From Nitrospinaceae bacterium (GTDB lineage: Bacteria; Nitrospinota_A; UBA7883; JAJDBK01): DNA of 40,099 nt. Numbering within the stretch: the first letter of the stretch is position 1; each line of letters opens with the position of its first letter. The stretch is taken from contig JAJDBK010000003.1 in the NCBI GenBank assembly GCA_029261405.1, positions 1 to 40,099 of the forward strand. The letters run 5' to 3'. The position numbers were made by a program, and so were the translations under genes. The notes beneath the pieces were generated by a model, which did not search any database, had not been told where the DNA came from, and was given only the letters and a program-made list of their open reading frames with translations. Positions 6,295-31,191 of this stretch are shown here, piece after piece.

Positions 6295-7476
6295 TCAGAG
6301 GCCGAATTTGTTTGATCTGTCGCTACAAAATATGCCGGAGGGTTTTTGGGCTGGGATTTCTTTTATCAGCTCGAAAGTTTTTGTGTCGTAGACTAAAACC
6401 TTGTTGTCGCCGTTTGATGAGATGTAGACGTACCTTCCTTTGGGGGTGAACTGCATGTGGAAGATTTTTTTGCCTGGTTTGAGTATCTTGATGACCTTTT
6501 TTGTCTTGATATCGACTACTTCCACCGTGTCGTGGTTTTTGCCGAGGACGTAGTTGGCCCAGATCTGGCGCATATCGGGTCGCGCCATGGCGAATACCGG
6601 AAAAGCGGAGAGTGGAATGAACTCTTTTGATTTCCAGGTTTTTGTATCGACCACCGCGAGACCTTCACCACCGATAACGGGGGCGAAAAGGTCTCCATCG
6701 GCCATAATCCATCCTTCGAGGTGAGGAATTTTTAAAACCGGTTCCAGATCCGGTTTGTCGGGTGGTTTCGGCAGGGGGACTTTTGTTATATTCTCCGGGT
6801 TCCACAGATCGAGCATGGCGACCCAGGGGGAGTGGAAGAGTCCTGCGATATACCATCTTCCGTCGGGAGTCAGGAGTCCGTCATACGGCTTGACTCCGAT
6901 ATCCGTATATTTTCTGATAACAGGAAAATCGGGTTTCGAGGCGTCGATAACCCATATCTCGTTGGCGTCCATCAACGAAACAATAAGCAGGTCGTTTGGA
7001 GCGTCTACCAGCCCGACGGTTTTGGAGTTGTCCGCTTCGATGGTTTTTACGATCTCGAATGTTTCGTCGGAGACGATTACGATGTTTCCCGGTTTGTAGT
7101 TGCTGATGGCTATATATTTACCATCCTGCGTGACGGCAAGCCCGATGGCGCTATCGCCGACTTTCAGTTTATTGGCGACTTTCAACTCTACCAGGTCGAT
7201 TTTGCTCAAAAATCCGTCCCTGCTGACGACGTAAGCGTATCGACTGCCACGGGAGAAGGAGATGGATGCGTGATGCAGAACTCCGAGTCCCTCGACTTTC
7301 CCCAGAACCTTATGATCCTGCGCGGAGTCTATAACCAGAACGGACCCAGCCTCCCGCTCTATCACGACCATCAGGGCGGACGTGCCCCATTTGTCGTCGG
7401 CCATGGCGGTAGCGGTTAAAATTAGGCCAAGAATAGCCTGAGCTACGATCAATCTAAGCGGTTTGGGCGATTTCAA
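6295..7476 (-). CDS. nirF: Heme d1 biosynthesis protein NirF
   Basis: NirF is a periplasmic beta-propeller needed for a late step of heme d1 synthesis; published work proposes oxidation of the side chain precursor. The 393 residues begin with a signal peptide (about 1-26, ending TAMA), followed by an eight-bladed cd1-like propeller without the heme c domain of NirS. Conserved features include HHASISFSRGSRYAYVVSRDG, the equivalent of the d1-proximal His blade of NirS. The start is TTG with AAGGAG seven bases upstream. The gene overlaps the end of nirJ by 23 bases. It is the last gene of the nirN-nirJ-nirF run, and no terminator with a T-run follows. Confidence 0.9.
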   Translation of the reverse strand: MKSPKPLRLIVAQAILGLILTATAMADDKWGTSALMVVIEREAGSVLVIDSAQDHKVLGKVEGLGVLHHASISFSRGSRYAYVVSRDGFLSKIDLVELKVANKLKVGDSAIGLAVTQDGKYIAISNYKPGNIVIVSDETFEIVKTIEADNSKTVGLVDAPNDLLIVSLMDANEIWVIDASKPDFPVIRKYTDIGVKPYDGLLTPDGRWYIAGLFHSPWVAMLDLWNPENITKVPLPKPPDKPDLEPVLKIPHLEGWIMADGDLFAPVIGGEGLAVVDTKTWKSKEFIPLSAFPVFAMARPDMRQIWANYVLGKNHDTVEVVDIKTKKVIKILKPGKKIFHMQFTPKGRYVYISSNGDNKVLVYDTKTFELIKEIPAQKPSGIFCSDRSNKFGL

Positions 7477-8623
7477 TTCCTATCTCCTTATCGGTCAGGT
7501 AGCAGGCCGGGTCACTCGCCCAGAAGTCACCGGCGATTCGTAGCGCCCGTTCGCGGTTGTTGCCACCGCATACATTGAGGAACCTGCATTCGCCGCATCT
7601 GCCCTTGATTGTTCTGGGTCGTTTACGAAGTTCATTCAAAAATTCGTTTTTGGTACTGTTCCAGATGTCGCCGAAAGGCGCGTCTTTTACATTGCCAAGG
7701 TCAACGTACTGGATCAGCGGGTCGGGATGCACCACACCTTGGGAATCGATATTCGCCACACCGATGCCGGCGCTGTTACCACCCGTTATTTTCATCCGCT
7801 CATGCAACCAATCAGCTTTTGCCGGATCTTTCTCCTGCAACCATAAAAGCAGGAACGCCCGGTCGGTATCGTTGTTTCCGGTTACGATCTCCATGTCGGC
7901 GCTGTTTGTAACATACTCTTGCGCTTTGGTGAAGACATTCTCCATCAGCCGACGTGTCTGTTCGTGCGTAACATCCTTGCCACGGTTTTCGTCTCCACGG
8001 CCCGAATATACCAGATGGGAAAGGTAGAGTTTGTCCACCTTCAGCTCTTCGGCAAGAGAGATGACATCAGGAACGGTGTCGAAGTTAAAATCGGTGACGG
8101 TAAAACGGATACCGGTCTTTACTCCAGAGTCCCTTAGCAGTTTTATGGCCCGGACAGATTTATCGAAAGCCCCCGTCGCGCCACGAAAAAGATCGTGGAT
8201 TTTGCGCGAGCCGTCGATACTGATTCCGATGTAATCAAAACCGGCCTCGACGATGGTTTTTGCGGATGACTCGTTTATCAGGACTCCGTTTGTTGAGAGA
8301 GTCACAGACATACCCGATTGCGCGGCGTGCCTTGCGATGTCGGGGAGATCGGGTCTCAATAACGGCTCCCCTCCCGACAGGATCAGATGTTTGACGTTTG
8401 CCGCCTTCAGGTCGTCCACAACCCGGATGGCGTCGTCGTGACTCAACTCCCCCTCAAACTTGCCTGCGTAAGAGGATGAATAACAGTGCAGACACGAAAG
8501 ATTGCACGCTTTTGTAAGATTCCATATGACCACAGGCGCCGCAAGTTGTTTCATCGGCGTGTTTGAGGTTCTACCTGCGGTTCTTTTATCGACCTGCCGT
8601 AATAGCCGGCTGAGTCTGAACAT
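7454..8623 (-). CDS. nirJ: Radical SAM heme d1 biosynthesis protein NirJ
   Basis: NirJ replaces propionate side chains on rings A and B of didecarboxysiroheme by radical chemistry in the cytoplasm. The 389 residues match the family. The radical SAM cluster motif CNLSCLHC supplies Cys40, Cys44 and Cys47. A GGEPL motif follows. An auxiliary cluster region in the C-terminus has CGEC...C (343, 346, 352) and Cys374. The opening MFRLSRLLR and PVVIWNLTKACNLSC are typical of NirJ. The ATG is preceded by GGGAGG. It sits between nirN (one base apart) and nirF (overlap). The upstream enzymes NirE and NirDLGH are not in this window. Confidence 0.93.
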   Translation of the reverse strand: MFRLSRLLRQVDKRTAGRTSNTPMKQLAAPVVIWNLTKACNLSCLHCYSSSYAGKFEGELSHDDAIRVVDDLKAANVKHLILSGGEPLLRPDLPDIARHAAQSGMSVTLSTNGVLINESSAKTIVEAGFDYIGISIDGSRKIHDLFRGATGAFDKSVRAIKLLRDSGVKTGIRFTVTDFNFDTVPDVISLAEELKVDKLYLSHLVYSGRGDENRGKDVTHEQTRRLMENVFTKAQEYVTNSADMEIVTGNNDTDRAFLLLWLQEKDPAKADWLHERMKITGGNSAGIGVANIDSQGVVHPDPLIQYVDLGNVKDAPFGDIWNSTKNEFLNELRKRPRTIKGRCGECRFLNVCGGNNRERALRIAGDFWASDPACYLTDKEIGIEIAQTA

Positions 8624-8624
8624 A

Positions 8625-10361
8625 TTAATCGACCTCCCTGAAACTTATGATGTAGGAGACAATGGCGTCTAGCTGTGGCTTCGAAAGTTTTATGTGCGAC
8701 ATGGAGTTTTGCTCGTAACCGAGACTTTCAGAGCTTTTGCCGGGAGATTTTATGTGGTTGCGGATCTCCGTTTCCGTGCGAACTTGCGCAATGTCGGTAA
8801 ACGATGGGCCAAAAGCCTCGTAAGTCTGATGGTGACAACCCATGCAATAATCGTTGAATACTGTTTCGCCATCCGATTTTGACGTATGGTAAGCTGGGCG
8901 TTCCAGCGATCTGCCCGGATAGGTTTTGTTGCGACCGTTATATTTGCCGACAGGTCGCTGGTAGGGCATGGTTTTTATCTTTTTAATGGTCGATGTATCG
9001 TAGACAACAACTGCTCCATCAACCCCTGGAATGGTCACAAGAGCGTATAGCCCGTTTTTTGTGAACTCCACATGCATCGCTTTTCTCCCCGCCATGGGAG
9101 TTATGTATCGAACTTTGGAAAAATCACTCTTATCAACAAGAACCACCTGCTCGCTCTCGGTGTCTATCCATAAATATGGAGTAGCGTAATGGGTTCGGAC
9201 AAAGAATCCGGCTCCCGGCAAGGGTATTTTCGCCACTTCTTTCAACTCATCAAGCGAGAGGATGGTGGCGTAAGGTTTCTTTATATGGTTGATGGTGGCG
9301 TAAAGTCTACCCCCATCCTTGTAGAAAGCCGCCGAGGCCAGATGCGGCAGTCCGCTTGTCGGCAGTTTTGCGACGATTTTTTCCATCTTGTAATCGTATA
9401 TATATAGATTGTCGGTCCCTCTTTTCGTACCGAGCAGATACGGTTTTTCGGGGCTGATCGAAAAATCCTCGAACGGCTCTGGAAGCGTTGCCTTTTTTAT
9501 CTTATATCCATTTTCGGGGAAGATAATCCATAACTCGGAAAGCTCCCTGAAAGAAACGACAAAGGCCTTTAACTCCGGCAGGGAGTAGAAACCTCCCACC
9601 TTCCCTGGCAGGGATATGGTTTTGATCGGCGCAAGGTCGGCGCTGTCGAAGAAGACTATATTTGCTGGGAGGTAGTTCGCCACCGCCACGATAGAGTCGT
9701 CGTGGGATACCGCTACAGACCTTGAGTTAATTCCGGCTTTTAACTTGCCGACAGTCGCCAGGGAGGGGATGTTGAACCATGTCACCAGCCCATCTCTCGA
9801 CACGGAATAGACATTTTCGAGGGAGTAGGAGAACTTCGGGCCACCGTGCACGTCGCCTACCTCAAACTTTGTAATCTTGTCGAGTTGCGGGCCGTTGAGG
9901 AGCGCGAGGCTTTTTGTGCCCCGTTCCATAACCAGGGTGACGGCTTCAAGGTCTGTGATTGCTTCTGCGTCTTTATGACGGGGCTTCATTTTTTTGACTG
10001 ATCGGCTTTGTAAAATATCCTTATCGGCCCATAAAAGCTGGCCTGGTTCTATCGGGGACTTTATATATTCGGTAATTTGCGAAATCTGATCTTTAGAAAG
10101 TTTGTTTTTATATGCGGGCATCCTGGAAGCGGGAAGCCCATCGCTTATAACTTTGGCGATCTTTCCCTTGACGGACCTTGAAAACATCTGAGGGATGAGA
10201 GGCGGAGCGGTCTGGCCCAACCGGTTGGGATGATGGCATTCGGAGCAATGTTTGATATAAAGATTGCGTCCCTGATTCTGGTCCTGATCCGCTTCTGCTG
10301 GAACCGCGTGGAGTGAGGAGATTATCGCCAACAACACGATTACAGACGCTTTATAAATCAT
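8625..10361 (-). CDS. nirN: NirN-like d1-propeller protein with a heme c domain at each end
   Basis: Canonical NirN is a periplasmic dihydro-heme d1 dehydrogenase that desaturates the precursor and passes heme d1 to NirS. Here the 578 residues contain a signal peptide (1-24), a cytochrome c domain with CSECH (39-43), a d1-binding propeller (about 125-475) and a second cytochrome c-like domain with CMGCH (506-510), followed by a plausible Met ligand in NSMSHIKLS. NirN from Pseudomonas has only the N-terminal heme c and is about 490 residues, so the C-terminal domain is an addition. The ATG has GAAGGA upstream. Lying between the nirS terminator and nirJ, it is probably expressed with nirJ and nirF. 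It could instead be a divergent NirS paralogue, but the context favours maturation. Confidence 0.82.
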   Translation of the reverse strand: MIYKASVIVLLAIISSLHAVPAEADQDQNQGRNLYIKHCSECHHPNRLGQTAPPLIPQMFSRSVKGKIAKVISDGLPASRMPAYKNKLSKDQISQITEYIKSPIEPGQLLWADKDILQSRSVKKMKPRHKDAEAITDLEAVTLVMERGTKSLALLNGPQLDKITKFEVGDVHGGPKFSYSLENVYSVSRDGLVTWFNIPSLATVGKLKAGINSRSVAVSHDDSIVAVANYLPANIVFFDSADLAPIKTISLPGKVGGFYSLPELKAFVVSFRELSELWIIFPENGYKIKKATLPEPFEDFSISPEKPYLLGTKRGTDNLYIYDYKMEKIVAKLPTSGLPHLASAAFYKDGGRLYATINHIKKPYATILSLDELKEVAKIPLPGAGFFVRTHYATPYLWIDTESEQVVLVDKSDFSKVRYITPMAGRKAMHVEFTKNGLYALVTIPGVDGAVVVYDTSTIKKIKTMPYQRPVGKYNGRNKTYPGRSLERPAYHTSKSDGETVFNDYCMGCHHQTYEAFGPSFTDIAQVRTETEIRNHIKSPGKSSESLGYEQNSMSHIKLSKPQLDAIVSYIISFREVD

Positions 10362-10433: not shown

Positions 10434-12032
10434 TCAGTAAATATCGCCCATCGTGTTGGTCACGTTGAACTTGCCAGTCGGAGTATGCAGACCTGTAATA
10501 CGGGTCTTGATCTTCCTGGTTTTGTCATCGATGATAACGATCTCACCCTTGATACTCCATATGGAAACCCATACTTCGGTACCTTGAGCGTTGTACTCCT
10601 GGTGGACTACACGAGCCTTCGGATCGGTGGTCAACTGAATGTAATCGATTTTACCCGGTTTGTTGATATCCATAACGCCAATGCTCTGGTGAGCCTTGAG
10701 GTCGGTGTTCAGGGTAAAATCCATCCAGAGGTTCTTGGAGTTCGGATGGGTTTTCAGGAAAAGGCTACCGGCGCCGCCAGCGGGTCCGACATCGCTAAGA
10801 TCGATGGAGCGAACAACTTTCCAGGCGCTTTTCGGGTGGCCTTCAGGATCGGTTCCCCATACGGAGATGAGTCCTTCACCAATATGAACTGTACCGTGAA
10901 CCGGGCCGAACTCAGGATCGGTCCAGTTGGCGCCACGACCCGGGTGAGGTTTCGTTCCGACATCAATGATGGCGACTCTTTTCCTCTCCTTGGTGTCGAT
11001 GACAACCATCTGGTCAACCATGTTGGCCGCAGGCATGAAATAACGGTGGGTGATATCCCAGCCGCCATCGTGAAGGAAGCGAGCCGCTTCAATCATGGTG
11101 ATTTTAAGGCTGTCTACGTTGGAGTAGTCAACCAGCCAGACGAAACCGGCTTCCTTGATATTCAGAACCCATTCCGGGCTGTAGTGGGAGGCGACGATAG
11201 CGGCCACGCGAGGCTCCGGATGGAATGTTCCGTCCAGGGTATAACCACGTGTGCTGACGACTTTCAGCGGCTCGAGTGTGGCGCCGTCAAGAACGACGAA
11301 GTGCGGAGGCCAGTAACAACCTACTACAGCCAGTTTGTCCTCGTAACCGTGGAACTTACTGGTATCAACAGAGCGGGCTTCCGAACATGTTCTGAGGGAG
11401 GCAACGATGGTCGGTTTTTTTGTCCAAAGGTCAATCATCTTGACTCTGCCGTCACGTCCGATGGAGAAGTAGTATCTTCCCGAAGCGGAGGAGCGGAGAA
11501 TATGAGTGGCGAACCCGGAATCGACACGACCGAACATTTTGTGGGTATCACCGTCATAGATGGCGATCTTGCCGGCGTCACGCTCGACAATACCCATGAA
11601 GTTTTTCCAGTTCAGGCTATGCTGAGGTTTGGTTGGTCGGTCAGCGACAGGAACCTGAACTTTCCAGCTCATTTTCATGTTACGCAGGGAAATCTCAGGC
11701 GGCGCAACAGGTTCTTGTTGGATGAACTTGGCCATCAGCATCATTTCATCCTTGGAAAGCTTATCGCTCCAGCCAGGCATTCCGCCAGGTGTACCTTCGT
11801 TGATGATCTCAAACAGGGTCTCTGTACCCATGTCGATGGTTTTCTTAGGCATGAGGTTAGGGCCTGTGGCGCCTTTCCTCAATGTCCCGTGACAACCGGT
11901 GCAATAGTTAAAGTAGGTTGCCGTGGATGCTTTCATCTCAGCGTCAGACATTTTCGGCGCTTTTGCAAGAGCCGATGATGTCATCAGGAAGACTGAGAAA
12001 AAGGCCAGGACAAGTATAGAACTTCTCTTCAT
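10434..12032 (-). CDS. nirS: Cytochrome cd1 nitrite reductase
   Basis: A periplasmic dissimilatory nitrite reductase that reduces nitrite to NO. The 532 residues include a signal peptide (1-23, ending SALA), a cytochrome c domain with CTGCH (44-48), and an eight-bladed d1 propeller. The d1 residues appear intact: proximal His177 in ATHILRSSASGRY, and the distal pair His321 (FLHDGG) and His363 (KPHPGRGANW), 42 residues apart as in the Pseudomonas enzyme. The C-terminus PTGKFNVTNTMGD is typical. The start chosen is ATG at 12032, where a signal peptide begins and a GGGGGG stretch precedes it; an upstream extension lacks both. A strong terminator follows, so it can be made in excess of nirNJF. 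Confidence 0.97.
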   Translation of the reverse strand: MKRSSILVLAFFSVFLMTSSALAKAPKMSDAEMKASTATYFNYCTGCHGTLRKGATGPNLMPKKTIDMGTETLFEIINEGTPGGMPGWSDKLSKDEMMLMAKFIQQEPVAPPEISLRNMKMSWKVQVPVADRPTKPQHSLNWKNFMGIVERDAGKIAIYDGDTHKMFGRVDSGFATHILRSSASGRYYFSIGRDGRVKMIDLWTKKPTIVASLRTCSEARSVDTSKFHGYEDKLAVVGCYWPPHFVVLDGATLEPLKVVSTRGYTLDGTFHPEPRVAAIVASHYSPEWVLNIKEAGFVWLVDYSNVDSLKITMIEAARFLHDGGWDITHRYFMPAANMVDQMVVIDTKERKRVAIIDVGTKPHPGRGANWTDPEFGPVHGTVHIGEGLISVWGTDPEGHPKSAWKVVRSIDLSDVGPAGGAGSLFLKTHPNSKNLWMDFTLNTDLKAHQSIGVMDINKPGKIDYIQLTTDPKARVVHQEYNAQGTEVWVSIWSIKGEIVIIDDKTRKIKTRITGLHTPTGKFNVTNTMGDIY

Positions 12033-12186
12033 AATAGCTGTACCCCCCAAATCCTTTAAAAAATTTGTGAACATTATGGTCAAAACCGCAAAAACGCCCT
12101 TCAAACGTTTTCTCAAGACCACTTTTAACGATACAATCTATACCAACCTTAATTCCCGGCGCAACAGTTTTTTTTGTTGCATTTCA

Positions 12187-13509: not shown

Positions 13510-13549
13510 GTGGAGAGTTTTTGATCATTATGTGGAGAGTTTTTGATCA
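13510..13549 (+). repeat. Pair of 18-bp direct repeats upstream of the heme-copper operon
   Basis: GTGGAGAGTTTTTGATCA occurs identically at 13510-13527 and 13532-13549. The period is 22 bp, about two helical turns, so bound proteins would lie on the same DNA face. Each copy contains the palindrome TGATCA. They lie about 145-185 bases before the predicted sigma-54 start, a typical distance for an enhancer-binding activator. Confidence 0.85.
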
Positions 13550-13576
13550 GTTTTGTGAAATATGTTGGATAAGGTG

Positions 13577-13763: not shown

Positions 13764-14393
13764 ATGAGCGACAACGACAAAGAAAAGAGCGGCAAAAAAG
13801 TATCGTATTGGGAAGTATTCATGGATGACATCTTCCTGTTATTTTTCCTGAGCATAGCTATTCTGTATATCTCCTATACGGTTTGGGGACTCATGGAGCT
13901 TGGCACAGCCAAACCTTCACCTCTTCTTTCGCCGTCTGTAGCGTCCGCTGAAGCGCCAGCGGCGGCTGTAGCGAAAAACTACTGGGCCGACTGGGCCAAA
14001 GGTAAAGCTCAGGGTCCGATGCCTGACTGTAATGTAAACGTTCTTGCCCTCGGCGGTGACGACATTCTGCAGGCTACCGTCGATATCTACTGTGGAGTTA
14101 AACCGGGTAGTTACACTTCCAAGATCAACCCGGCGGTCATGGATATTTACAATGCCAAAGGCGACACATATCCAGATGGAAAAACCGGAGTTCTCATATT
14201 CGAAGATATCGGAGTTGTCTTTTCCACAGATCATAAAGGCGGACAGCCGATATATGACGTTCTGACCATCAAGGAAGAAAAATCGATCGCTTCAAGCGAG
14301 GCTGGGCACCCGTTAAATCCGAAGACTTGCGAAAAATGCCACGCAACATTTGACGGCGTATGTGTGGGTTACGTTTGCGGAAACAGATTCTGA
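13764..14393 (+). CDS. Membrane-anchored protein with one C-terminal heme c motif, heme-copper enzyme subunit
   Basis: 209 residues. A cytoplasmic N-terminus with Lys/Asp, one transmembrane helix (about 22-45), an Ala/Pro linker, then a periplasmic domain (about 75-209). The only heme motif, CEKCH (189-193), lies just 16 residues from the C-terminus, so the usual cytochrome c fold with a downstream Met ligand cannot follow it. Cys200 and Cys205 and earlier Cys89 and Cys110 could form disulfides. By position (first of four genes, GGGGGGG ribosome-binding site) it is probably an electron-entry or accessory subunit of the heme-copper enzyme, like NorC or a cytochrome c subunit in role though not clearly in fold. 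Confidence 0.7.
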   Translation: MSDNDKEKSGKKVSYWEVFMDDIFLLFFLSIAILYISYTVWGLMELGTAKPSPLLSPSVASAEAPAAAVAKNYWADWAKGKAQGPMPDCNVNVLALGGDDILQATVDIYCGVKPGSYTSKINPAVMDIYNAKGDTYPDGKTGVLIFEDIGVVFSTDHKGGQPIYDVLTIKEEKSIASSEAGHPLNPKTCEKCHATFDGVCVGYVCGNRF

Positions 14394-14435: not shown

Positions 14436-14963
14436 ATGAGCGTAACTGCGCCGCAACCAGGTTTCTTTGATCAACCTCTTCATAAAGAAGAGAAGATCTG
14501 GATAGCCCTGGCGTTCGTATGGTGTATTTTTATCACGGTTGCAATGCCCTGGTGGCATATTGCAGGAAATCAGAACTCATCCAGCGAGTTCTACAAAATT
14601 TCCGGTGAGCATTTTTCCACCATAGTAGATGATTTTATCGCCAAGAATAAAACCGGTGAAGAGGCTGGCATTCCAGTAGTGTCCCCTCCCCCTGGTAGCG
14701 ACATTTTCCTGAGGGGCCAACAGTGGGCCTGGGATCCTATTCTTGACCTGAAGGTTAACGAAACTTACCGATTGCACCTGTCTTCAATCGACGTTTTGCA
14801 CGGCATGTCGATCCATCCGATCAACATGAACTTTGAGGCGGTTCCCGGCTGGGATTACGTCCTGACTATCACACCGACCACTAGTGGTGATTTCCGAATT
14901 ATCTGCAACGAGTTTTGCGGAGTGGATCACCACAACATGATCGGTAAAATAATCGTTAAGTAG
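14436..14963 (+). CDS. CuA-containing subunit II of a heme-copper NO reductase-type enzyme
   Basis: 175 residues. One transmembrane helix (about 22-40) and a periplasmic cupredoxin domain. The CuA site is complete: His122 in DVLHGMSI, and Cys157-x-Glu159-x-Cys161-G-x-x-His165-x-x-Met168. It therefore accepts electrons from a soluble cytochrome c or cupredoxin and passes them to subunit I. Having a single transmembrane helix and this short length is like B-family (ba3-type) subunit II rather than the two-helix A-type. AAGGAGG precedes the ATG. Subunit I starts 13 bases after its stop. Confidence 0.88.
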   Translation: MSVTAPQPGFFDQPLHKEEKIWIALAFVWCIFITVAMPWWHIAGNQNSSSEFYKISGEHFSTIVDDFIAKNKTGEEAGIPVVSPPPGSDIFLRGQQWAWDPILDLKVNETYRLHLSSIDVLHGMSIHPINMNFEAVPGWDYVLTITPTTSGDFRIICNEFCGVDHHNMIGKIIVK

Positions 14964-14976
14964 GAGAGGGGGGAAA

Positions 14977-16497
14977 ATGGCCGCGAAATCTGAAAAATTC
15001 AGAACGTGTCCGACAACCGGGTTCAAAATACATGGCCCGGCGGAGACTCTGATTCAAATAAACGCTGTCACCGCGATAGTGTTTCTGCTGGTCGGGGGCA
15101 TCATTGGCCTCGCCTTGGCTTTGACAAGGTGGCAGGCGATACATCTGCTGAATGATACACTTTTTTACCGCCTTCTCTCCTTGCACGGCATTGCAATGCT
15201 GGTTGCGTGGATCATCTTCTTTGAGATGGCGATTCTCTATTTTGCCAGCGCGGTAGTGCTTAGCGCGCGGCTGGCTGTGCCGTGGCTCGGATGGTTGCAA
15301 TACCTGCTGATGCTCGTTGGTGGCGCCATCGTCGCTGTACAGATCCTTCTGGGCAACGCCGATGTCATGTTTACATCGTATGTTCCGCTACAGGCGCATC
15401 ATCTCTATTATCTTGGCATTATCCTCTTCGCTGTCGGCGCTATCTTGGGTTGCGTAGTCTTCTTCGCCACCGTGGTAGCCGCTAAAACCGAAGGCGCGCA
15501 TACCGGCTATCTGCCGCTTGTCACCTTCGGCGCCGCCGCCGCCGCGATCATTGCCATTGGTACACTCTCTCACGGCGCTATCGTTTTCATCCCGACATGG
15601 CTCTGGGCCGCCGGGCTGGTTCCGATGATGGACGTAGAGGTTTACAGGCTCATCTTCTGGGGCTTCGGACACTCTTCGCAACAGATCAACGTCTGCGCGA
15701 TGGTTGCCGTATGGTACCTGCTTGGAACATTGACAGTCGGCTCAGTTCCCTTGAACGAGAAGGTCTGTAGGTCCGCGTTTGTTCTGTACATCCTCTTCAT
15801 CAACATAGCTTCCGAGCATCATCTCCTGGTTGACCCGGGCCTTTCGGCCGCTCACAAAACCTGGAACACTGGTTACTTCATGCACCTTGCCGTGCTCGCC
15901 AGTATGATTCACGCTTTCTCGATCCCGGCCGCTGTTGAGGTTGCCTTAAGGAAGAAAGGCTATACTAAAGGCGCATTTGAATGGCTCAAGAAGGCTCCCT
16001 GGGGTAACCCGGGATGGTCCGCTCTGGTTCTCTCTCTCATCGGATTTGGTTTCCTTGGCGGAATTACCGGTGTTGTTTACGGAACTGAGCAGATCAACAT
16101 CATCGCCCATAACAACCTGAGAATTCCTGGTCACTTTCACGCTACCGTGGTCTGCGGAACTACTCTTGCCTTTATGGGTATCACCTACTATGTACTGCCT
16201 CTCATCTTCAGAAGAGAAGTGGCCTTCCCACAGCTTGCGAAAATTCAGCCTTATCTGTTCGGTATCGGCATGATGGTCTTCTCGACCGCCATGATGTTCG
16301 CCGGTGGATTTGGTGTATCTCGCAGAAGCTGGGACATGAACGGTGTTGAGTCGGCTTTCGCTGTAGATTTCGGCCCTGTCGTTGATATCGCTCTTGCCAT
16401 TATGGGCATTGGCGCTCTTGTCGGCGCAATTGGTGGCGCATTGTACTGCGTAATTGCCGTGGCTACACTGCTCATCGGCAAGAAAATTAACGCATAA
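14977..16497 (+). CDS. Heme-copper enzyme catalytic subunit I lacking the crosslinked Tyr (candidate eNOR/sNOR-type NO reductase)
   Basis: 506 residues with about 13 transmembrane helices. Metal ligands are visible: His70 (SLHGIAM) and His388 for the low-spin heme, His386 (PGHFH) for the high-spin heme, and His232, His281 and His282 for CuB. Oxygen reductases of the A and B families carry Tyr four residues after the first CuB His (HPEVY); here the sequence is HSSQQ, with Gln236 in that place. Loss of this Tyr together with retention of a CuA subunit II is what separates the eNOR/sNOR-type NO reductases from oxygen reductases; cNOR instead pairs with a cytochrome c and has Glu residues. The function (2 NO to N2O) is inferred from this and from nirS nearby. 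GGAGAGGGGG precedes the ATG. Confidence 0.82.
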   Translation: MAAKSEKFRTCPTTGFKIHGPAETLIQINAVTAIVFLLVGGIIGLALALTRWQAIHLLNDTLFYRLLSLHGIAMLVAWIIFFEMAILYFASAVVLSARLAVPWLGWLQYLLMLVGGAIVAVQILLGNADVMFTSYVPLQAHHLYYLGIILFAVGAILGCVVFFATVVAAKTEGAHTGYLPLVTFGAAAAAIIAIGTLSHGAIVFIPTWLWAAGLVPMMDVEVYRLIFWGFGHSSQQINVCAMVAVWYLLGTLTVGSVPLNEKVCRSAFVLYILFINIASEHHLLVDPGLSAAHKTWNTGYFMHLAVLASMIHAFSIPAAVEVALRKKGYTKGAFEWLKKAPWGNPGWSALVLSLIGFGFLGGITGVVYGTEQINIIAHNNLRIPGHFHATVVCGTTLAFMGITYYVLPLIFRREVAFPQLAKIQPYLFGIGMMVFSTAMMFAGGFGVSRRSWDMNGVESAFAVDFGPVVDIALAIMGIGALVGAIGGALYCVIAVATLLIGKKINA

Positions 16498-17018: not shown

Positions 17019-17828
17019 ATGTTTAGGTGGCCGCAACAGATTATATCTCTCTTTATTCTTGCGATTGTTTTTGCTGGACCGGCTGGCGCAATCTCGGCTA
17101 TTGAAGAATCGGAAAAAGCTGTCGGAAAAAAAATGGGCAACTACAGGCTGATAGATCAGGATGGTGTGTTTACCCCCTTTTACACATTCATAGGTCATCC
17201 TGTCTTGCTTAACTTCATGTATACAAACTGCGTCGGTCCATGTCAGATAGCAAGCGCGGGTATCAGCAAAGTACGCAAATCCCTCAACCCGGAACTGGCG
17301 GCTCAATTGATAACGGTATCTATAACCCTGGATATCGACCGGGACAAACCACACATATTAAAAGAATTCGGTTACGGGTTTACCGACAGTTTCGAGAGCT
17401 GGAAGTTCGCCCGCGCCGACGAGATTACCCTGGAAAAAATGATCGCCGACCTGGGGTTCAAATATGAAAAGACGGAAATGGGGATGGATCATATGAACCG
17501 TCTGACCCTGATCGGCCCGGATGGAATAGTAAAGAAACATTTTTATGGCATGAATTACGACCCTGCCATAGTAGGCCCTGCCATAAAGGCGGTGGTCGAG
17601 GGGCGGGGTTTAAGCGAGGCTATCTCCGATTCATTGGGGCGTGTTCTTTTATACTGCTCCAATTACGACCCGATTACTAAGACTTACAGGGTCGATTTTA
17701 TGTTTGTTGCGATAGTTATATTTCAATATCTTCTGGTGATGGGATGCATCATTTTTTATTTTCGGGCGGGGATCGCGCGCATTTTCATGAAACTTATTAA
17801 GAGAGGCGATTATAAAGATGGAGTCTGA
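17019..17828 (+). CDS. SCO1/SenC copper chaperone with C-terminal membrane helix
   Basis: A periplasmic thioredoxin-fold copper chaperone that helps load CuA in subunit II. Of its 269 residues, 1-25 are a signal sequence. The copper-binding CVGPC (71-75) and a later His in GMDHMNR complete the Cys-x3-Cys/His site. A C-terminal helix (about 228-252) anchors it, an extension found in a subset of SCO proteins and also in the copy at 27014. Its position between the NO reductase-like operon and the cytochrome b fusion (overlapping it by 11 bases) suggests service to the CuA of the 14436 protein. No strong ribosome-binding site is seen. Confidence 0.88.
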   Translation: MFRWPQQIISLFILAIVFAGPAGAISAIEESEKAVGKKMGNYRLIDQDGVFTPFYTFIGHPVLLNFMYTNCVGPCQIASAGISKVRKSLNPELAAQLITVSITLDIDRDKPHILKEFGYGFTDSFESWKFARADEITLEKMIADLGFKYEKTEMGMDHMNRLTLIGPDGIVKKHFYGMNYDPAIVGPAIKAVVEGRGLSEAISDSLGRVLLYCSNYDPITKTYRVDFMFVAIVIFQYLLVMGCIIFYFRAGIARIFMKLIKRGDYKDGV

Positions 17829-19479
17829 GAATAGTGGCGTAAAAAAAGAGGCAAAAGCCGCTCCACGCGGTTACAAAAAATCGAACAAACAGGTTCCGGC
17901 TATTCTTGCGCCGGGGAATTATCTGCTTGTGCGAATACAGGAGGCGTTTAACCTGATATTCACCCCCGCCATGAATCCTCTCTATTATCTTGGCGCAATA
18001 ACGTTCCTCTTTTTCTGGGTGATTCTCGGTTCCGGCGCCTATTTATATCTCTTTTACAACATGAGCCCGGATGGCGCATACGAATCGATCAGATACATAA
18101 GCGAGGATCAGAAATATTACGGCGGTATCATTCGTTCAATGCACAGATACGCATCCGACGGGATCGTGATCGTCATACTTATTCATGTATTCCAGGTATT
18201 TTTCTCCGACAGGTTCAGGCAATACAGGTGGGTCGCATGGGTGTCTGGCGCAGCCATTCTTCCTGTTATATGGTTTGAGGGAGCGTCTGGTTATTTTCTG
18301 GTGTGGGACAAGCCGGCTCAGGCTTTGGCTATGGCCCTTTCCGATATGATGGATGTCCTGCCGCTGAATGCGGACCCGGTTCAGCGCAACTTCCTCACTC
18401 CAGACCACATCAACGCACTCCTCTTTTTCGTCATGAGTTACCTGCACCTTGCGATCCCGTTACTCTTGCTTATACTGGCGTGGGTTCATTGTATGCGCAT
18501 CTCCATGCCTCTGATTCATCCGCCAAAATCTGTAACCATTGTCATCCTCTCCTCCCTGGTGGCCCTCGCCCTCATAAAACCCGCCGCAAGTGGTGAGCCG
18601 GCCAACCTGATGGAACTTGTGGGCTCTACACAGGTCGACTGGTTTTTTGTTGGCATGTTTCCGCTAATGCATCTTCTCGATATTACCCCGTTAACAGCAT
18701 GGATCGCAGGAAGTCTGTTTGCCACTGTTTTTGTAGCTCTTCCATGGATTGTACCCGGTCCCAATAAATCTGAGGTAGAGAGACCTGCTTTTGAGCAGGC
18801 GCCGATTGAGGTCGATAACGACAAGTGTAAAGCGTGTGTATTGTGCCAACAGGCGTGCCCCTTTGAGGCGATGGTGGTAGAGAAATTTCCGGAAGGGTCA
18901 CCGACTGCGGGAAGGGCGGTCGTATCGCCAGAAAAATGCTCCGAATGCGGATTCTGCGTCAACGCATGTGAGTTTGGCCTTGTATCGATGGGCGGTGTGA
19001 ACAAAATAACGATGCAAACATATATCGAGAGCCTTTTCCAGCCTCAGAAGGGGAGAGTGACTCCGACATCCTTGGCGTTTGTATGTGAAAGAAGTTTCAA
19101 CCAGGAGGGGTTTTACTCTGGAGATAGAAAACGGCTCGCATCAAACGAAGAGGTGGCGAGTGTAGTGATCCCTTGTGTAGGAATCTTGAGCCAGACGATT
19201 ATTGACGCCAGCTTCAAGGCCGGGGCGAAGGGAGTCTTTGTGGTCGATTGCAGACCGCTCGATTGCCACTACAGGGAGGCTCGCAGAAGGCTGAAACTGA
19301 GTGACGATCCGGAAAGACAGAAATTCCATATCGAAAACATGGAGGGGGATAACCTTAAGGTTCTTTCAGTCTCTCCGTTTGAGACGGAAGCGTTGGTAAA
19401 AAAGATCAACGAGTTTAACGAGGCGGTCAAGGGCGCAAAGAAGGTTGATGAATCCAATATGAAAGATGGTGAGGTCTGA
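17818..19479 (+). CDS. Cytochrome b fused to a 2[4Fe-4S] ferredoxin and an MvhD-type domain
   Basis: 553 residues. The N-terminal half is a diheme cytochrome b of bc/b6f type with about seven helices (55-312): His109/His123 and His210/His224 are spaced as the two bis-His heme pairs. The Qo PEWY motif is altered to VDWF (273-276). Then comes a ferredoxin with two full CxxCxxCxxxC motifs (Cys337-347 and Cys374-384). The end (about 418-540) is an MvhD/FlpD domain with Cys423, Cys453, Cys478 and Cys483, including CRPLDCHY; in methanogens this domain links hydrogenase or formate dehydrogenase to heterodisulfide reductase. No Rieske or cytochrome c1 gene is adjacent. Inference: electron transfer between quinone and a soluble iron-sulfur partner. 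The soluble domains should face the cytoplasm. Confidence 0.86.
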   Translation: MESENSGVKKEAKAAPRGYKKSNKQVPAILAPGNYLLVRIQEAFNLIFTPAMNPLYYLGAITFLFFWVILGSGAYLYLFYNMSPDGAYESIRYISEDQKYYGGIIRSMHRYASDGIVIVILIHVFQVFFSDRFRQYRWVAWVSGAAILPVIWFEGASGYFLVWDKPAQALAMALSDMMDVLPLNADPVQRNFLTPDHINALLFFVMSYLHLAIPLLLLILAWVHCMRISMPLIHPPKSVTIVILSSLVALALIKPAASGEPANLMELVGSTQVDWFFVGMFPLMHLLDITPLTAWIAGSLFATVFVALPWIVPGPNKSEVERPAFEQAPIEVDNDKCKACVLCQQACPFEAMVVEKFPEGSPTAGRAVVSPEKCSECGFCVNACEFGLVSMGGVNKITMQTYIESLFQPQKGRVTPTSLAFVCERSFNQEGFYSGDRKRLASNEEVASVVIPCVGILSQTIIDASFKAGAKGVFVVDCRPLDCHYREARRRLKLSDDPERQKFHIENMEGDNLKVLSVSPFETEALVKKINEFNEAVKGAKKVDESNMKDGEV

Positions 19480-19480
19480 T

Positions 19481-20035
19481 ATGAGTAGCTCAAAACTTAA
19501 TCTTGGCGGAATTGTGACATTGATGGCGCCTATCGTCCTGATCTTCTTCTTGTCGACTTCGCCAGGCTACACTTATCATCAGCCTGATGAATCGATGATA
19601 ATCGTCTCTTTCAAGAAAACGACTGAGAGAAGGACCTTATGTGACGATAGCCAGATGGAGGATTTCAGAAGTACCGAGGATACCCAGAGATCACATATGA
19701 GGAAAAAAGGTCGTAATTGCGGCAGTCGTGATCGTGTCTCGCTTGAGATGATAATAAACATGGATGGCGATGAGAGGTTTAACGGTCTGATTCAACCCAG
19801 CGGACTTAACTCTGATGGCGTTGTGTTCATATATGAAAGGTTCTCTATAAAAGCTGGAGACCATACGATAGAGGTGAAGGTTCGGGACAATAAAGATCCG
19901 AATGCGGAGTTCAAAACTTTCAAGGAAAGTATTTCGTTGAAAGGTCACGAGATCGCCGTTATCGATTATGACAAGGGGAAAGACTCCTTTTTTCTAATTA
20001 CGGGCGATTCAACCTTCCGTACTATGGCTAAGTAA
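19481..20035 (+). CDS. Membrane-anchored protein of unknown function
   Basis: 184 residues. An N-terminal helix (about 9-27) leads to an extracytoplasmic beta-rich domain with the pattern SIKAGDHTIEVKVRD, as in small immunoglobulin-like or carbohydrate-binding folds. Cys54 and Cys80 may pair. ATG at 19481 lies one base after the stop of the cytochrome b fusion with GGTGAGG upstream, so the two are probably co-translated. It converges with and overlaps by eight bases the heme O synthase on the other strand. Not recognised; a subunit or assembly factor for the fusion protein is possible. Confidence 0.65.
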   Translation: MSSSKLNLGGIVTLMAPIVLIFFLSTSPGYTYHQPDESMIIVSFKKTTERRTLCDDSQMEDFRSTEDTQRSHMRKKGRNCGSRDRVSLEMIINMDGDERFNGLIQPSGLNSDGVVFIYERFSIKAGDHTIEVKVRDNKDPNAEFKTFKESISLKGHEIAVIDYDKGKDSFFLITGDSTFRTMAK

Positions 20036-25475: not shown

Positions 25476-26249
25476 CGCTGAGCATTTTCTGCAACCAGAA
25501 GCCTCATAAAATCAACTATTTCTGATTAGTTTTCCTTGATTTCTATCTAGCCTTAGCGCCGTTCAGTCAGCCTGACCAAGGCAGTTTTGGCCTGTTTCCG
25601 GCCTGCGGACGAGCCTTGCGCGGCTCAGGGCTACGTTGTTATGCAACCAACCTTTTGAAGTTGCACGTCAAGCCGCATAGGGGGATTCCCAGAGGGTTCG
25701 GCGCCCAATCCGATTCATGGAACACCAGATCTTCACGTCCACTGTCTTTACTCGACCCGGCTCGCCCTTTCGGGGGGAGGCAACTCTTTTAGCGCAATGG
25801 CGTAAAACCGGAAATGGAAAACTGGAGCCGGTGGTCCGAAGGGGCGAACACAGGCCGTAAATCTGTATTTTAAGGCGATGAGAAAAATAAATATTTTCCG
25901 GGATAACCCGCAATTTCCTCCAAAATCGTAAAAATCTGGAAACATTCTTTTCGGTGTCTGGAAAGAAAGTTTCCGATTTTGAAAGTCTGCGAACTTATTG
26001 AAAAAAAAGGAGAAAAATCCCGATTTAAGGCTTGATCGGAGTTTGCGAAAGTGCTTAAATTCAGACTCACATATTCAGAGACGACCCCCACAGGTGGAGG
26101 AGGTTGTCTAATTAAATTGTTTATTCAACGGAGAAAACTCTCCGTTTTAAAGCGTTTTAAAGTTTTCGTGACGGCGGTCGCATTCGTGGTCGGGAATCAT
26201 GGGACTAATTTTTTTGGCAATAAAAATCTACGTTTTTGGGAGGGAGTCT
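25476..26249. other. Long noncoding stretch with multiple hairpins before the cox operon
   Basis: No convincing gene. At 25570-25626 three hairpins lie in a row: GCCT/AGGC, GGCC/GGCC and GAGCC/GGCTC. G+C-rich sequence at 25600-25860 differs from the AT-rich AlbA_2 gene and may be an insertion boundary or structured RNA. From 25870 onward the sequence is AT-rich and probably regulatory for coxIII. The AGGTGGAGGAGGTT segment (26091-26104) pairs imperfectly with the ACGACCCCCAC just before it. Confidence 0.5.
26127..26146 (+). promoter_or_regulatory. Hairpin in the cox operon leader
   Basis: Perfect 8-bp arms AACGGAGA and TCTCCGTT around an AAAC tetraloop, about 105 bases before coxIII, followed by two tandem CGTTTTAAAG units. 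It lacks a long T-run, so it is more likely a regulatory or RNA-stability element than a terminator. Confidence 0.55.
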
Positions 26250-27005
26250 ATGGCAAGTGAAGAGGCGCATGTCCACCATTGGGAATGGAGTTATTATCCT
26301 CTGATTCTTGTGGCCGGCATATTTTTCGCCGTTCCATTGGGTTTTGCAGCGTTTTTTGTTTACGGAAGCGGGCTGATGTCCGCATTGTTTATCGGTCTTG
26401 GTGTTCCCCTGATAATCTGGGGTTGCGCTGGATGGGCCGGAGAGGGAATTGCAAACGCGGAAAATGAGACAGGCTGGGCTTTGACCGGACTGCCGATATT
26501 TATCGTTTCCGAAGTTCTGATCTTTCTCTCTTTGTTTGTATCTTACTGGATGTTAAGGCTGACCGCTCCTGAGTGGCCACCCCCCGGCAGTCCTGAGATA
26601 GGTCTTGGCATTCCGATATTCATGACTATCCTACTGGTAAGCTCGTCGTTTACCTATCATATTGGCGAGGAGAGGCTCGAAGAGGGTGACAAAGCCGGTT
26701 TTATAAAATGGCTCTACATCACTATTGGTCTTGGAGCGCTATTTCTCCTGATGACAGGTGTCGAATACACCCACCTGCTTGGTGAAGGGTTCGGTTTTTC
26801 CGCCAACGCCAAATCGACCGCATTCTATTCGATTACCGGTTTCCACGCATCCCATGTTCTTGTGGGTCTTGGCATTTTCCTGTTTGTGCTGTTTCCAGCG
26901 TTGTCGGGGAAAATCAGCCATGTCTTTGTGACAGGGGCCGGAATCTACTGGCACTTCGTTGATATCGTCTGGTTTTTTGTTATTTCCCAGATCTATATTT
27001 GGTGA
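26250..27005 (+). CDS. ctaE: Heme-copper oxidase subunit III
   Basis: 251 residues, about seven helices. Typical segments are SEVLIFLSLFVSYWMLR (with the conserved Glu), a central ...TYHIGEERL... loop, GFHASHVLVGLG and the C-terminal YWHFVDIVWFFVISQIY. Start at ATG 26250 is set by GGGAGGGAG immediately before it; an upstream in-frame ATG (26199) would add a poor, site-less extension. It is the first gene of the oxidase operon, an uncommon position since subunit III normally follows I. Confidence 0.93.
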   Translation: MASEEAHVHHWEWSYYPLILVAGIFFAVPLGFAAFFVYGSGLMSALFIGLGVPLIIWGCAGWAGEGIANAENETGWALTGLPIFIVSEVLIFLSLFVSYWMLRLTAPEWPPPGSPEIGLGIPIFMTILLVSSSFTYHIGEERLEEGDKAGFIKWLYITIGLGALFLLMTGVEYTHLLGEGFGFSANAKSTAFYSITGFHASHVLVGLGIFLFVLFPALSGKISHVFVTGAGIYWHFVDIVWFFVISQIYIW

Positions 27006-27013
27006 ATTAAGGA

Positions 27014-27862
27014 ATGATACGCTGGCTGTTAATAATTGCGCTACTCCTGCTCTCGGGGGTTGATGAAGCGAATTGCACTTCTCTTCCTTCCGATTCCCAG
27101 ATTGATCCCGAACTGCTCAGAGTCGATGACAAGGAGTATCTTGGGGTCAAGGTCACGGAAGGATCGGTCTTTATCGACAGTCAAGGAAAAGAGTTCACCT
27201 GGAAGGATCTTGGTGACAAACCGGTAATTCTCGTTCTCTCCTACTATACATGTGACGGTTTTTGTCCGGCGTTTAACACGGAACTCCGTTCTGTGTTGGA
27301 GCGAGTGCAGAATCTGTCACGCGTAAAGATCGGGGACGATTTTGCCGTTCTCACCCTTTCGTTCGACGGTAACGACGACCCGGAGTCCGCCGGAATGTTC
27401 CGCGAAAAACTGGCTTTGCCTGACGAACTTGAAAAAGATTGGAAGGTGGCTGTTTTCAAGGAGCGTGACCGGATCAAATCGTTCACTAACAAGATCGGTT
27501 ACAAATTTTTCTGGTCACCACCGGACAGGATGTTCTTTCATCCGAACGCTTTTTATTTTATTACACCCGAGAGAAGGGTGTCGAGAATCCTGCATAACTC
27601 ATTAACGGACGCAAGCGATATGGAGCTTGCCATTCTTGATGCGAAGTTTTCCAGGATGAAACCGACCGAGATCGTTAATTTTGCGGTAAGTCTTTGTTAT
27701 AGCTACAACTATAAAGAAGGTAAATATGGCCTTAACTACCCGCTTTTTATCGCTTTCGGATCGTTGTTTGGCGGAATAACTGCGTTTGCCGTCGCGGCGA
27801 ACGTTTCACGAAAAAAGGCTGAAAAGCTGAAAATATCAAGAGGTAAAGGGGAAAAACTATGA
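27014..27862 (+). CDS. SCO1/SenC copper chaperone with C-terminal membrane helix
   Basis: 282 residues. Signal sequence (1-20), thioredoxin-fold domain with CDGFC (80-84) and the later His in MFFHPNAFYF, then a C-terminal helix (about 243-263) and a basic tail. Same architecture as the copy at 17019, including an aromatic YSYNYKEGKYGLN segment before the helix. Inside the oxidase operon (eight bases after coxIII, four-base overlap with coxII), so it most likely loads CuA of the adjacent subunit II. Confidence 0.9.
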   Translation: MIRWLLIIALLLLSGVDEANCTSLPSDSQIDPELLRVDDKEYLGVKVTEGSVFIDSQGKEFTWKDLGDKPVILVLSYYTCDGFCPAFNTELRSVLERVQNLSRVKIGDDFAVLTLSFDGNDDPESAGMFREKLALPDELEKDWKVAVFKERDRIKSFTNKIGYKFFWSPPDRMFFHPNAFYFITPERRVSRILHNSLTDASDMELAILDAKFSRMKPTEIVNFAVSLCYSYNYKEGKYGLNYPLFIAFGSLFGGITAFAVAANVSRKKAEKLKISRGKGEKL

Positions 27863-28548
27863 CAATTTGGTTCCGCGTAGTGGCGATGGTTTCCGCCGTC
27901 GCACTATGGGCCGTTCCGGCAATGGCGGAAGGAAAGCCGTTGCAGGATCACACCGAACACTGGAACACCTTGTGGCACCATGTGATATTGGACATGACGG
28001 CCATAGCGGTAGTGTTTGCCGCTATTACCATATGGTTCCTGGTGAAATACAAGAGGACTAGCGAAGATCAGGAAGGGGACTCGCCCTCCCTCTCCTTCGG
28101 CGCTTCGATGGCTTGGGCCATCATCCCGATTTTTCTGTTTCTGGCGGACGATTTCTATCTGGCCGCCAACGGCTGGAAGCTGTGGAACGACCAGCGGCAG
28201 GTTCCGGAGAACGCCATGGAGGTGAAAGTCACAGCGTCGATGTGGAGTTGGGAGTACGAATACGAAAACGGAAAGACTTCCGAGGATCTAGTTGTTCCGG
28301 TTGGGGCTCCTGTCGTGGTTCGTGGTTCGAGTGATGACGTTGTTCACGGTATGTCTTTGGCCGACTTCAGGATCAAGGAAGACATCATGCCGGGAAGGAT
28401 AACTTATCTCTGGTTCTACCCCAAGGAAGTAGGTGAGCATGTCTGGACATGTACCGAATATTGTGGTTTGAACCACTCGGATATGTACAACAAGGTTGTC
28501 GTGAAATCGAAGGCTGATTTCGACTCATGGCTCGGTACTAAAGGCTAA
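27859..28548 (+). CDS. ctaC: Cytochrome c oxidase subunit II (CuA)
   Basis: 229 residues. A signal sequence (1-23), two transmembrane helices (about 44-63 and 82-100) and a cupredoxin domain. CuA ligands: His163, Cys198, Glu200 (backbone), Cys202, His206 and Met209 in CTEYCGLNHSDM. WSWEYEYENGK is the aromatic electron-entry strand. No fused cytochrome c domain, so a separate cytochrome c is the donor. It is 90 bases from subunit I; the gap holds a CCTTCC/GGAAGG hairpin just upstream of the coxI ribosome-binding site. Confidence 0.96.
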   Translation: MTIWFRVVAMVSAVALWAVPAMAEGKPLQDHTEHWNTLWHHVILDMTAIAVVFAAITIWFLVKYKRTSEDQEGDSPSLSFGASMAWAIIPIFLFLADDFYLAANGWKLWNDQRQVPENAMEVKVTASMWSWEYEYENGKTSEDLVVPVGAPVVVRGSSDDVVHGMSLADFRIKEDIMPGRITYLWFYPKEVGEHVWTCTEYCGLNHSDMYNKVVVKSKADFDSWLGTKG

Positions 28549-28638
28549 TCCTGATTTCCGCTCCTCCTCTCTGTTTAAAAGGGGAGACGGATTTTTGAAA
28601 GGAACCTTCCGGGGGAAGGTGATTTAAAGGGAAAAAAT

Positions 28639-30222
28639 ATGAAAGAATGGATTTTTACGACCGACCATAAGAGGATAGGAATCCTCTATCTTGTCGGTTC
28701 CATAGCCGCCTTTGCTGTGGCTGGAATCATGGCCCTGCTCATAAGGGTAGAGCTGTCCAGCCTCGGACCAACGCTGGTGGAGGATGCGTCACAATATAAT
28801 GTGTGGCTCTATTTTCATGGCGCCGCCATGATCCTCGCCTTCCTCATTCCGGGGTTGACAGGCTTTGTGGCCAACTACTGCATTCCGCTAATGATCGGCG
28901 CCCACGATGTGGCGTTTCCGAGGATCAACGCATTTTCCGTGTGGCTCTTCTGGTTCGCTATTGTCCTGGCTCTGCTGACATTTGTTATTCCGGATCCGCC
29001 AGATGTGCTCTGGACCGGTTATCCGCCATACTCCGTGCAGACGGACGGTAACACGGCTTTTTATGTATTTACGGTTCACCTGCTCGGATTCTCTTCGATC
29101 CTGGGCGCCGTAAACTTTCTTTGCACTGTAATCTACATGAGAGCTCCCGGCATGGGCTGGAACCAGCTTAATGTCTTCGTCTGGACAACCCTGGGCGCTT
29201 TTGTTATTCAGCTTGTCATGATTCCGGTGCTGGCATCGGCTGTCACGCTACTGCTATTTGACAAGTATTTAGGGACGACGTTCTTTAATCCGGAGAATGG
29301 AGGTGACGTACTGCTATACCAGAACCTCTTCTGGTTCTACTCGCATCCGGCGGTTTACGTTATCTTGCTACCGGCGGTCGGCATTATTCTCGAGGTTCTT
29401 GCGACATTTGCTAGGAACCCTGTCTTTAACTACAAGGTCACCGTCTATGGCGGTATCTGGGGCACCGTTCTGCTTGGGTCCGACGTATGGGCGCATCACC
29501 TCTACACTTCCGGTATGGTCGATTGGCTCAGAATCGGAATGATGGTGACGACCTTGCTCATATCGCTACCTGTGGGACTGCTTACCATATCTCTTGTCGG
29601 CACGCTCTACAAGGGGTCAATCTCATTCAAGACCCCAATGGTCTACGCCACTTCCACACTATTCCTCATTCTGCTAGGCGGACTGACCGGTATCCCGCTG
29701 GCCATGACCTCCCTTACAGTGCACCTCGCGGAGACCTACTTCGTTATGGCGCACTTCCATTACATAATGGGAATTACCGCTACCTTCGCCGTTTTCGCCG
29801 GAGTGTATTACTGGTTCCCGCTTATGACTGGAAAAATGTATAATGAGACTTATAGTCAAATCGGTTTTTGGTTGAATTTCATTGGTGTGAACCTGACTTT
29901 CTGGCCGCTGTTTGGTATCGGTATCGACGGGATGCCCCGCAGGTATTTCGATTACCAGATGTATCCGGAGTTTGAATCGACTCAAATGCTCTCTACTGTT
30001 GGCGCGTTTATTGTCGCCGCTGGTATGGCGATTACGATTCTGACCTGGATTCATGGAGCGATCCTGGGCGAGAAAGCCAAGCCTAATCCGTGGGGTTCCA
30101 AATCGATGGAGTGGACTCACTGCGAGTATCCTCCGGGGCCGGGTAACTTCCCGACTCCTCCGGAGGTTACCGCCGAATGGTCTCCTTATAACTACGGCAA
30201 ACATACTGCCCAAAGTTTGTAA
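28639..30222 (+). CDS. ctaD: Cytochrome c oxidase subunit I, A2-type, with K-channel Lys replaced
   Basis: 527 residues, 12 helices expected. Ligands: His60 and His374 (low-spin heme), His372 (high-spin heme), His236, His286 and His287 (CuB), with the crosslinking Tyr240. The motif YSHPAVY (234-240) is the A2 signature: the helix VI Glu is absent and Tyr-Ser replaces it. The D-channel Asp90 (GAHDVAFPR) is kept. Where A-type enzymes read PTG-x-K, the sequence is PVGLL (311-315), so the K-channel Lys is Leu. Flanking residues align without gaps. It is an oxygen reductase by Tyr240, but its proton pathways are unusual. A terminator follows. Confidence 0.93.
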   Translation: MKEWIFTTDHKRIGILYLVGSIAAFAVAGIMALLIRVELSSLGPTLVEDASQYNVWLYFHGAAMILAFLIPGLTGFVANYCIPLMIGAHDVAFPRINAFSVWLFWFAIVLALLTFVIPDPPDVLWTGYPPYSVQTDGNTAFYVFTVHLLGFSSILGAVNFLCTVIYMRAPGMGWNQLNVFVWTTLGAFVIQLVMIPVLASAVTLLLFDKYLGTTFFNPENGGDVLLYQNLFWFYSHPAVYVILLPAVGIILEVLATFARNPVFNYKVTVYGGIWGTVLLGSDVWAHHLYTSGMVDWLRIGMMVTTLLISLPVGLLTISLVGTLYKGSISFKTPMVYATSTLFLILLGGLTGIPLAMTSLTVHLAETYFVMAHFHYIMGITATFAVFAGVYYWFPLMTGKMYNETYSQIGFWLNFIGVNLTFWPLFGIGIDGMPRRYFDYQMYPEFESTQMLSTVGAFIVAAGMAITILTWIHGAILGEKAKPNPWGSKSMEWTHCEYPPGPGNFPTPPEVTAEWSPYNYGKHTAQSL

Positions 30223-30237
30223 GGGATAGTTTATTCG

Positions 30238-30283
30238 GGTGGGTCCGGCGCCAAATCGGCGTTCCGGGCCCACCTTTTTTTTT
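30238..30283 (+). terminator. Terminator between coxI and ctaA
   Basis: GC-rich hairpin with outer arms GGTGGG and CCCACC and inner CCGG/CCGG and GCC/GGC pairs (30238-30274), followed by nine T. ctaA begins 13 bases later, so the heme A synthesis genes would be expressed at a reduced level by read-through. Confidence 0.85.
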
Positions 30284-30296
30284 AAGATGGTATGAA

Positions 30297-31190: not shown

Positions 31191-31191
31191 C

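Follow-up and report, generated by a model that had tools for sequence, protein, structure and literature searches.

Nitric oxide reductases of the eNOR type occur in several phyla and are held to produce N2O, while little is known about how they are supplied with electrons and assembled. Their catalytic subunit carries Gln at the position of the active-site Tyr (PMC8756737), and eNORs have been reported in Gallionellaceae and in Zetaproteobacteria. The described eNOR operons (PMC8756737, PMC10734462, PMC8114936) share with the locus considered here a subunit I in which Gln takes the place of the Tyr, and a CuA-bearing subunit II. However, the literature examined mentions no cytochrome b–ferredoxin–MvhD gene for them, and some eNOR operons do lack it, whereas in the present locus such a fusion follows the reductase genes. 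The Rieske/cytochrome b complexes of anammox bacteria (Kuste4569-4574, Kustd1480-1485; PMC12954380) likewise connect a diheme cytochrome b with a cytosolic Fe–S/NAD(P) module in a nitrogen-oxide context. Nevertheless, they contain a Rieske protein and multiheme c subunits, and their NAD(P) reductase is a protein of its own, whereas the fusion has the MvhD domain in the same chain, no Rieske protein, and an eNOR as its neighbor, and a Rieske gene accompanies only its distant relatives. The soluble end of the fusion is the same unit as the C-terminal ferredoxin–MvhD region of HdrA2 (NF040770), with the FAD-binding HdrA body gone and a membrane cytochrome b in its place; a protein resembling one half of complex III has thus acquired soluble iron–sulfur modules known from enzymes of hydrogen and methane metabolism. 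CcoG/FixG is also a membrane protein with 2[4Fe-4S] whose gene lies downstream of heme-copper reductase genes, and the fusion together with the product of the next gene, T, may parallel it in having a β-sandwich on a transmembrane (TM) anchor; however, the fusion differs in its diheme cytochrome b core, its extra [2Fe-2S] domain, and the lack of a FixG-domain match. Thus, the parts belong to known families, whereas the searchable literature yielded nothing on their combination, on its occurrence in eNOR operons, or on the swapping of its soluble modules; no description of a cytochrome b–MvhD fusion appeared in the literature searched, and a prior mention in the primary eNOR paper (PNAS 2024) is possible.

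The window, that is, the whole stretch of 40,099 nucleotides that was analyzed, belongs to contig C3 of a 3.27 Mb genome that is 99.5% complete, and its features lie on the + strand unless stated otherwise. The fusion (17818..19479) is a single ORF of 553 aa (ORF list, Pfam, AlphaFold2), and the union of a diheme cytochrome b, two [4Fe-4S] clusters, and MvhD in one polypeptide, proposed in an earlier note made from the sequence alone, was borne out by Pfam, an alignment of 115 sequences, and AlphaFold2/Foldseek. Pfam assigns residues 47-228 to Cytochrome_B (66.6 bits, cut-off 27.2), 336-387 to a 4Fe-4S dicluster, and 419-538 to FlpD/MvhD (54.4 bits, cut-off 22.3), while residues 329-542 correspond as one unit to HdrA2 571-773, with 89.8 bits against a cut-off of 1100, a match restricted to the C-terminal part of HdrA2, the FAD-binding HdrA domain being absent. 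The cytochrome b part (residues ~28-312, 17899..18753; Pfam, AlphaFold2, Foldseek) consists of an amphipathic helix and TM helices A-F, and the model of the fusion (pLDDT 89.7, pTM 0.88) has its best fold matches among bc1 cytochrome b chains, with 5nmi_C at the top (E 9e-8). As in the cytochrome b (bc1/b6f) family, four heme His with 14-residue spacing, H109 and H123 in helix B (18142..18186) and H210 and H224 in helix D (18445..18489), are invariant in 115/115 aligned sequences; by analogy with bc1, H109 and H210 would ligate heme bL, and H123 and H224 heme bH. The ef loop carries VDWFF (residues 273-277, 18634..18648; alignment) at the PEWY position, with Asp instead of Glu. This modified Qo motif, recognized earlier as VDWF, is shared by the relatives, in which D274, W275, and F276 are kept in 110, 114, and 106 of the 115 sequences, respectively. 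The 2[4Fe-4S] ferredoxin domain (residues ~329-395, 18802..19002; Pfam, alignment) contains the cluster cysteines C337/340/343/347 and C374/377/380/384, and the MvhD/FlpD [2Fe-2S] domain (residues 419-538, 19072..19431; Pfam, HdrA2 match, alignment) contains C423, C453, C478, and C483, each present in 100-111 of 115 sequences; all twelve cysteines, and hence all three clusters, are complete in 95/115. Since the C-terminus after helix F would be cytoplasmic by analogy with bc1, the Fe–S domains are expected on the cytoplasmic side beside heme bH, and the VDWF pocket on the periplasmic side beside heme bL.

The fold and the heme ligands could indicate an ordinary subunit of a bc1/b6f-like complex III. 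However, this is very improbable, as the operon encodes neither a Rieske protein nor a cytochrome c1/f, an ordinary Rieske/cytochrome b pair is present on contig C17, DWF stands in place of PEWY, and Fe–S modules are attached at the C-terminus. The absence of a Rieske partner asserted in the earlier note was confirmed for the window and contig C3, the two Rieske matches of the genome being on C17 and C76. The refuting case named there, homologues always accompanied by Rieske/c1 genes, failed for the main family, whose members are usually without them, although some distant relatives do have a Rieske gene.

The fusion had been placed between a SCO gene and a NO reductase-like operon; the actual order is COX2-COX1-SCO-fusion within one gene cluster, of which SCO and the fusion form the 3′ part. 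The small single-TM protein X (13764..14393) is followed by COX2, a subunit II with the CuA motif CNEFCGVDHHNM (14436..14963; ORF list, Pfam), COX1, a heme-copper subunit I (14977..16497; Pfam, alignment), and a SCO1/SenC-type copper chaperone in which CxxxC is present (17019..17828; Pfam), whose ORF end overlaps the start of the fusion by 11 bases; T starts directly behind the fusion (19481..20035). In the window, X is extended and has a CEKCH heme-c motif close to the C-terminal end; its counterparts in other lineages are bare TM peptides. The order X-COX2-COX1-(CtaB)-SCO-fusion-T is conserved both within the class and among the named loci, and the full operon is present on a Defluviimonas plasmid, where the annotation reads 'cytochrome b N-terminal domain-containing protein' and 'hypothetical protein'. 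The model of T (pLDDT 92) shows a TM helix and a β-sandwich, its C54 and C80 are invariant in 39 sequences, and in some relatives T is joined to the C-terminus of the fusion. Upstream of the operon and in divergent orientation lie NirS, the cytochrome cd1 nitrite reductase (10434..12122, − strand), with both catalytic His present, and the NirN-like, NirJ, and NirF-like heme d1 genes (6295..10361, − strand). Two close direct copies of GTGGAGAGTTTTTGATCA at 13511-13550, upstream of the eNOR operon, may represent an operator. A search for the NNR/DNR box TTGAT-N4-ATCAA with up to two mismatches gave 23 matches where 23.5 were expected and was therefore uninformative. Downstream, an aa3-type oxidase cluster (COX3, COX2, COX1, CtaA, CtaB) with further SCO-like genes occupies positions 26199-32100.

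Judged by their residues, COX1 and COX2 would form an eNOR-type NO reductase. In an alignment to ba3 oxidase, Gln (Q236) replaces the active-site Tyr of COX1 and the three CuB His are kept; Q236 is found in 50/51 and the CuB His in 50/51 COX1 sequences. An sNOR was considered in view of the similar norSY-senC-orf1 order and was discounted, since the active site has the Gln listed for eNOR, not Asn. A COX1 homologue of ~430-495 aa, Y2, recurs in these clusters (L078:13144-14619, L079:3655-5046, and further loci); it keeps the heme His, but two of the three CuB His are missing and Phe occupies the position of the Tyr (33/33). When eNOR, rather than the fusion, was used as the query in 385 genomes, the fusion was found in or beside the eNOR operon at 9/12 resolvable loci outside the phylum (the locus of G055, which runs out at the contig edge, is not among the 12) and was absent in G369, G042, and G189. 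Thermus and Thermomicrobium plasmids have X-COX2-COX1 without adjoining SCO, fusion, or T. Over 43 loci, the distances of COX1 and the fusion correlate at 0.89, against 0.20 for the best of 1000 permutations. The proposed link to NO respiration is supported by the eNOR-type COX1, the NirS gene next door, and the recurrence of the same operon in many lineages.

These features suggest an undescribed electron connection that joins the cell interior to either NO respiration or the assembly of the NO reductase, and the conserved SCO–cytochrome b–Fe–S–T block is a concrete candidate for the feeding or assembly of eNOR. The preferred reading, which has about an even chance of being right, is that the fusion serves as the membrane electron conduit of the eNOR gene cluster, connecting cytosolic NAD(P)H or ferredoxin with the quinone/NO-reductase side. 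In this conduit, a cytosolic carrier, NAD(P)H or ferredoxin, would exchange electrons with the MvhD [2Fe-2S] cluster, the latter with the two [4Fe-4S] clusters, and these with heme bH and then heme bL, possibly in either direction and in this presumed order, while heme bL might hand over to a quinone in the Qo-like pocket or to the CuA side of eNOR. This reading is favored because of the observed cofactor ligands, the expected topology, the partner modules, and the Rieske-linked relatives, alongside the operon and the phylogenetic conservation of the fusion, and it is also supported by the co-inheritance of COX1 and the fusion. However, the transfer of NADH electrons to the p-side would be a waste of energy for an autotroph. 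Moreover, the soluble module is lost in the relatives G013 and G014, some eNOR operons are without the fusion, and the window contains no NuoF or FNR gene.

As for the soluble partner, copies of the fusion at 11 loci of Nitrospirota and relatives adjoin a gene for a NuoF-like protein (FMN domain, SLBB, NADH_4Fe-4S), which at several of these loci lies between two copies. Beta-proteobacteria have a second copy in which the cytochrome b is retained and Fer2, FAD_binding_6, and NAD_binding_1 replace the ferredoxin–MvhD part; this cytochrome b–[2Fe-2S]/FAD/NAD reductase fusion (L080:5969-7897 and beta-proteobacterial equivalents) is paired with the ferredoxin–MvhD version. One cytochrome b core is thus joined to different soluble redox modules, namely ferredoxin–MvhD, ferredoxin–MvhD plus NuoF, and the FNR type, and the NuoF and FNR modules of relatives make NAD(P)H the probable cytosolic reactant. 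The idea that a bc-type cytochrome b is wired to soluble redox carriers is supported by the conserved cluster ligands and by these modules. Following the suggestion to look for HdrA-like or other MvhD partners, single searches of the genome located one NuoF on C56 and, on C78, HdrA-like genes that resemble QmoA/QmoB in size, but none of them is linked to the operon.

Alternatively, the fusion could act outside the respiratory chain as an assembly reductase, of the CcoG type or resembling Fre-type cupric reductases, in which the fusion and T would pass cytosolic electrons to the periplasm and reduce Cu(II) or the cysteines of SCO/CuA while eNOR is built. Although this is less probable, copper/thiol assembly competes seriously with the conduit, given that the fusion strictly co-occurs with SCO and some eNORs are without both. 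Among 14 eNOR loci that had been collected irrespective of the fusion, 9 have both SCO and the fusion and 5 (Thermus, Thermomicrobium, G042, G189, and G369) have neither, with a Fisher p of 5e-4 that is not corrected for phylogeny. Furthermore, the distance correlation between the fusion and SCO is the highest, at 0.93 compared with the 0.89 for COX1, and this co-variation fits an assembly role and counts against the conduit. The neighbors include biogenesis genes (SCO, CtaB, sometimes CtaA), T combines a TM anchor with two invariant Cys, and CcoG offers a parallel with its 2[4Fe-4S], its Ig-like periplasmic domain, and a gene downstream of oxidase genes (PMC7558416). Nevertheless, the Qo-like DWF and both hemes are strongly conserved in the fusion and neither is described for CcoG, and relatives of the fusion are found in Rieske operons, alone, or beside a kinase. 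T, in turn, has no Pfam match, the FixG domain included, and no PDB fold match at E <= 0.001 in Foldseek; its identification as FixG found no support from Pfam, PDB sequence search, or Foldseek.

The Rieske-linked relatives bear on both the conduit and a further possibility. In G240, G098, G369, and G132, a bc-type cytochrome b with Arg and Tyr replacing both bH ligands, thus with bL ligands only (L210:10766-11926, L212:9619-10842, L213:6524-7750, and L214:10416-12260), adjoins a cytochrome b–2[4Fe-4S] protein with a DW[FL]Y motif, and a Rieske gene and a separate MvhD gene were read directly in G240, G098, and G132. Since the partner lacks the bH ligands, its low-potential electron would be able to continue only via the Fe–S-bearing subunit, so that the exit of this electron from a bc-type complex is directly testable in these relatives. 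The joint presence of Rieske, bL-only cytochrome b, and separate MvhD genes gives the conduit a respiratory precedent. It also fits a quinol-bifurcating complex, in which quinol would be oxidized at the Qo-like site, one electron going to eNOR (CuA or the heme c of X) and the other through bL, bH, and the Fe–S clusters to ferredoxin or NAD(P)+; with such a split, NO reduction would drive the formation of low-potential reductant. An equivalent split has been proposed in anammox bacteria for Rieske/cytochrome b complexes that include NAD(P) reductase modules (PMC12954380). In the fusion, the chain of clusters leads to the cytosol, and the hosts include groups known for lithotrophy, e.g., Gallionellaceae. 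Bifurcation is, nevertheless, improbable here, as the eNOR operons are without a Rieske protein or an equivalent one-electron gate, with no certain substitute, and versions with cytochrome b only exist. Hosts such as Gallionellaceae presumably rely on ubiquinone, and the higher potential of this quinone disfavors the reduction of NAD+ along such a route, which would make bifurcation unlikely as a general function. The specific version, in which a Rieske-free, quinol-oxidizing cytochrome b supplies electrons both to eNOR for NO reduction and, through MvhD, to ferredoxin/NAD(P)+, is a little more doubtful still; if true, it would provide denitrifying lithoautotrophs with low-potential reductant, paid for with NO.

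The fusion occurs in many related and distant genomes, which rules out an assembly artefact, a possibility that had been raised as a caveat. The closest named relatives of the window in a scan of named genomes are mostly Nitrospinota MAGs, and among 60 relatives, full fusions run through most of the order and part of the class. The scan yielded 232 related stretches, and the best 79 loci belong to Nitrospinota, Nitrospirota, 'Deltaproteobacteria', alpha-, beta-, gamma-, and zetaproteobacteria, and one Polarisedimenticolaceae MAG. In G013 and G014, cytochrome b and T are kept and ferredoxin and MvhD are lost, thus the soluble module is dispensable there. A paralogue consisting of cytochrome b, ferredoxin, MvhD, a TM helix, and a β domain without the cysteines of T is found in G000 (L052:4230-6311, contig C73) and G001 (L054:8741-10588, contig C4), where its gene follows immediately on that of a Ser/Thr protein kinase. 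This arrangement suggests a redox-sensing pair of the kinase and the paralogue. The paralogue also shows that the architecture of the fusion has a use outside NO reduction, which counts against the conduit reading.
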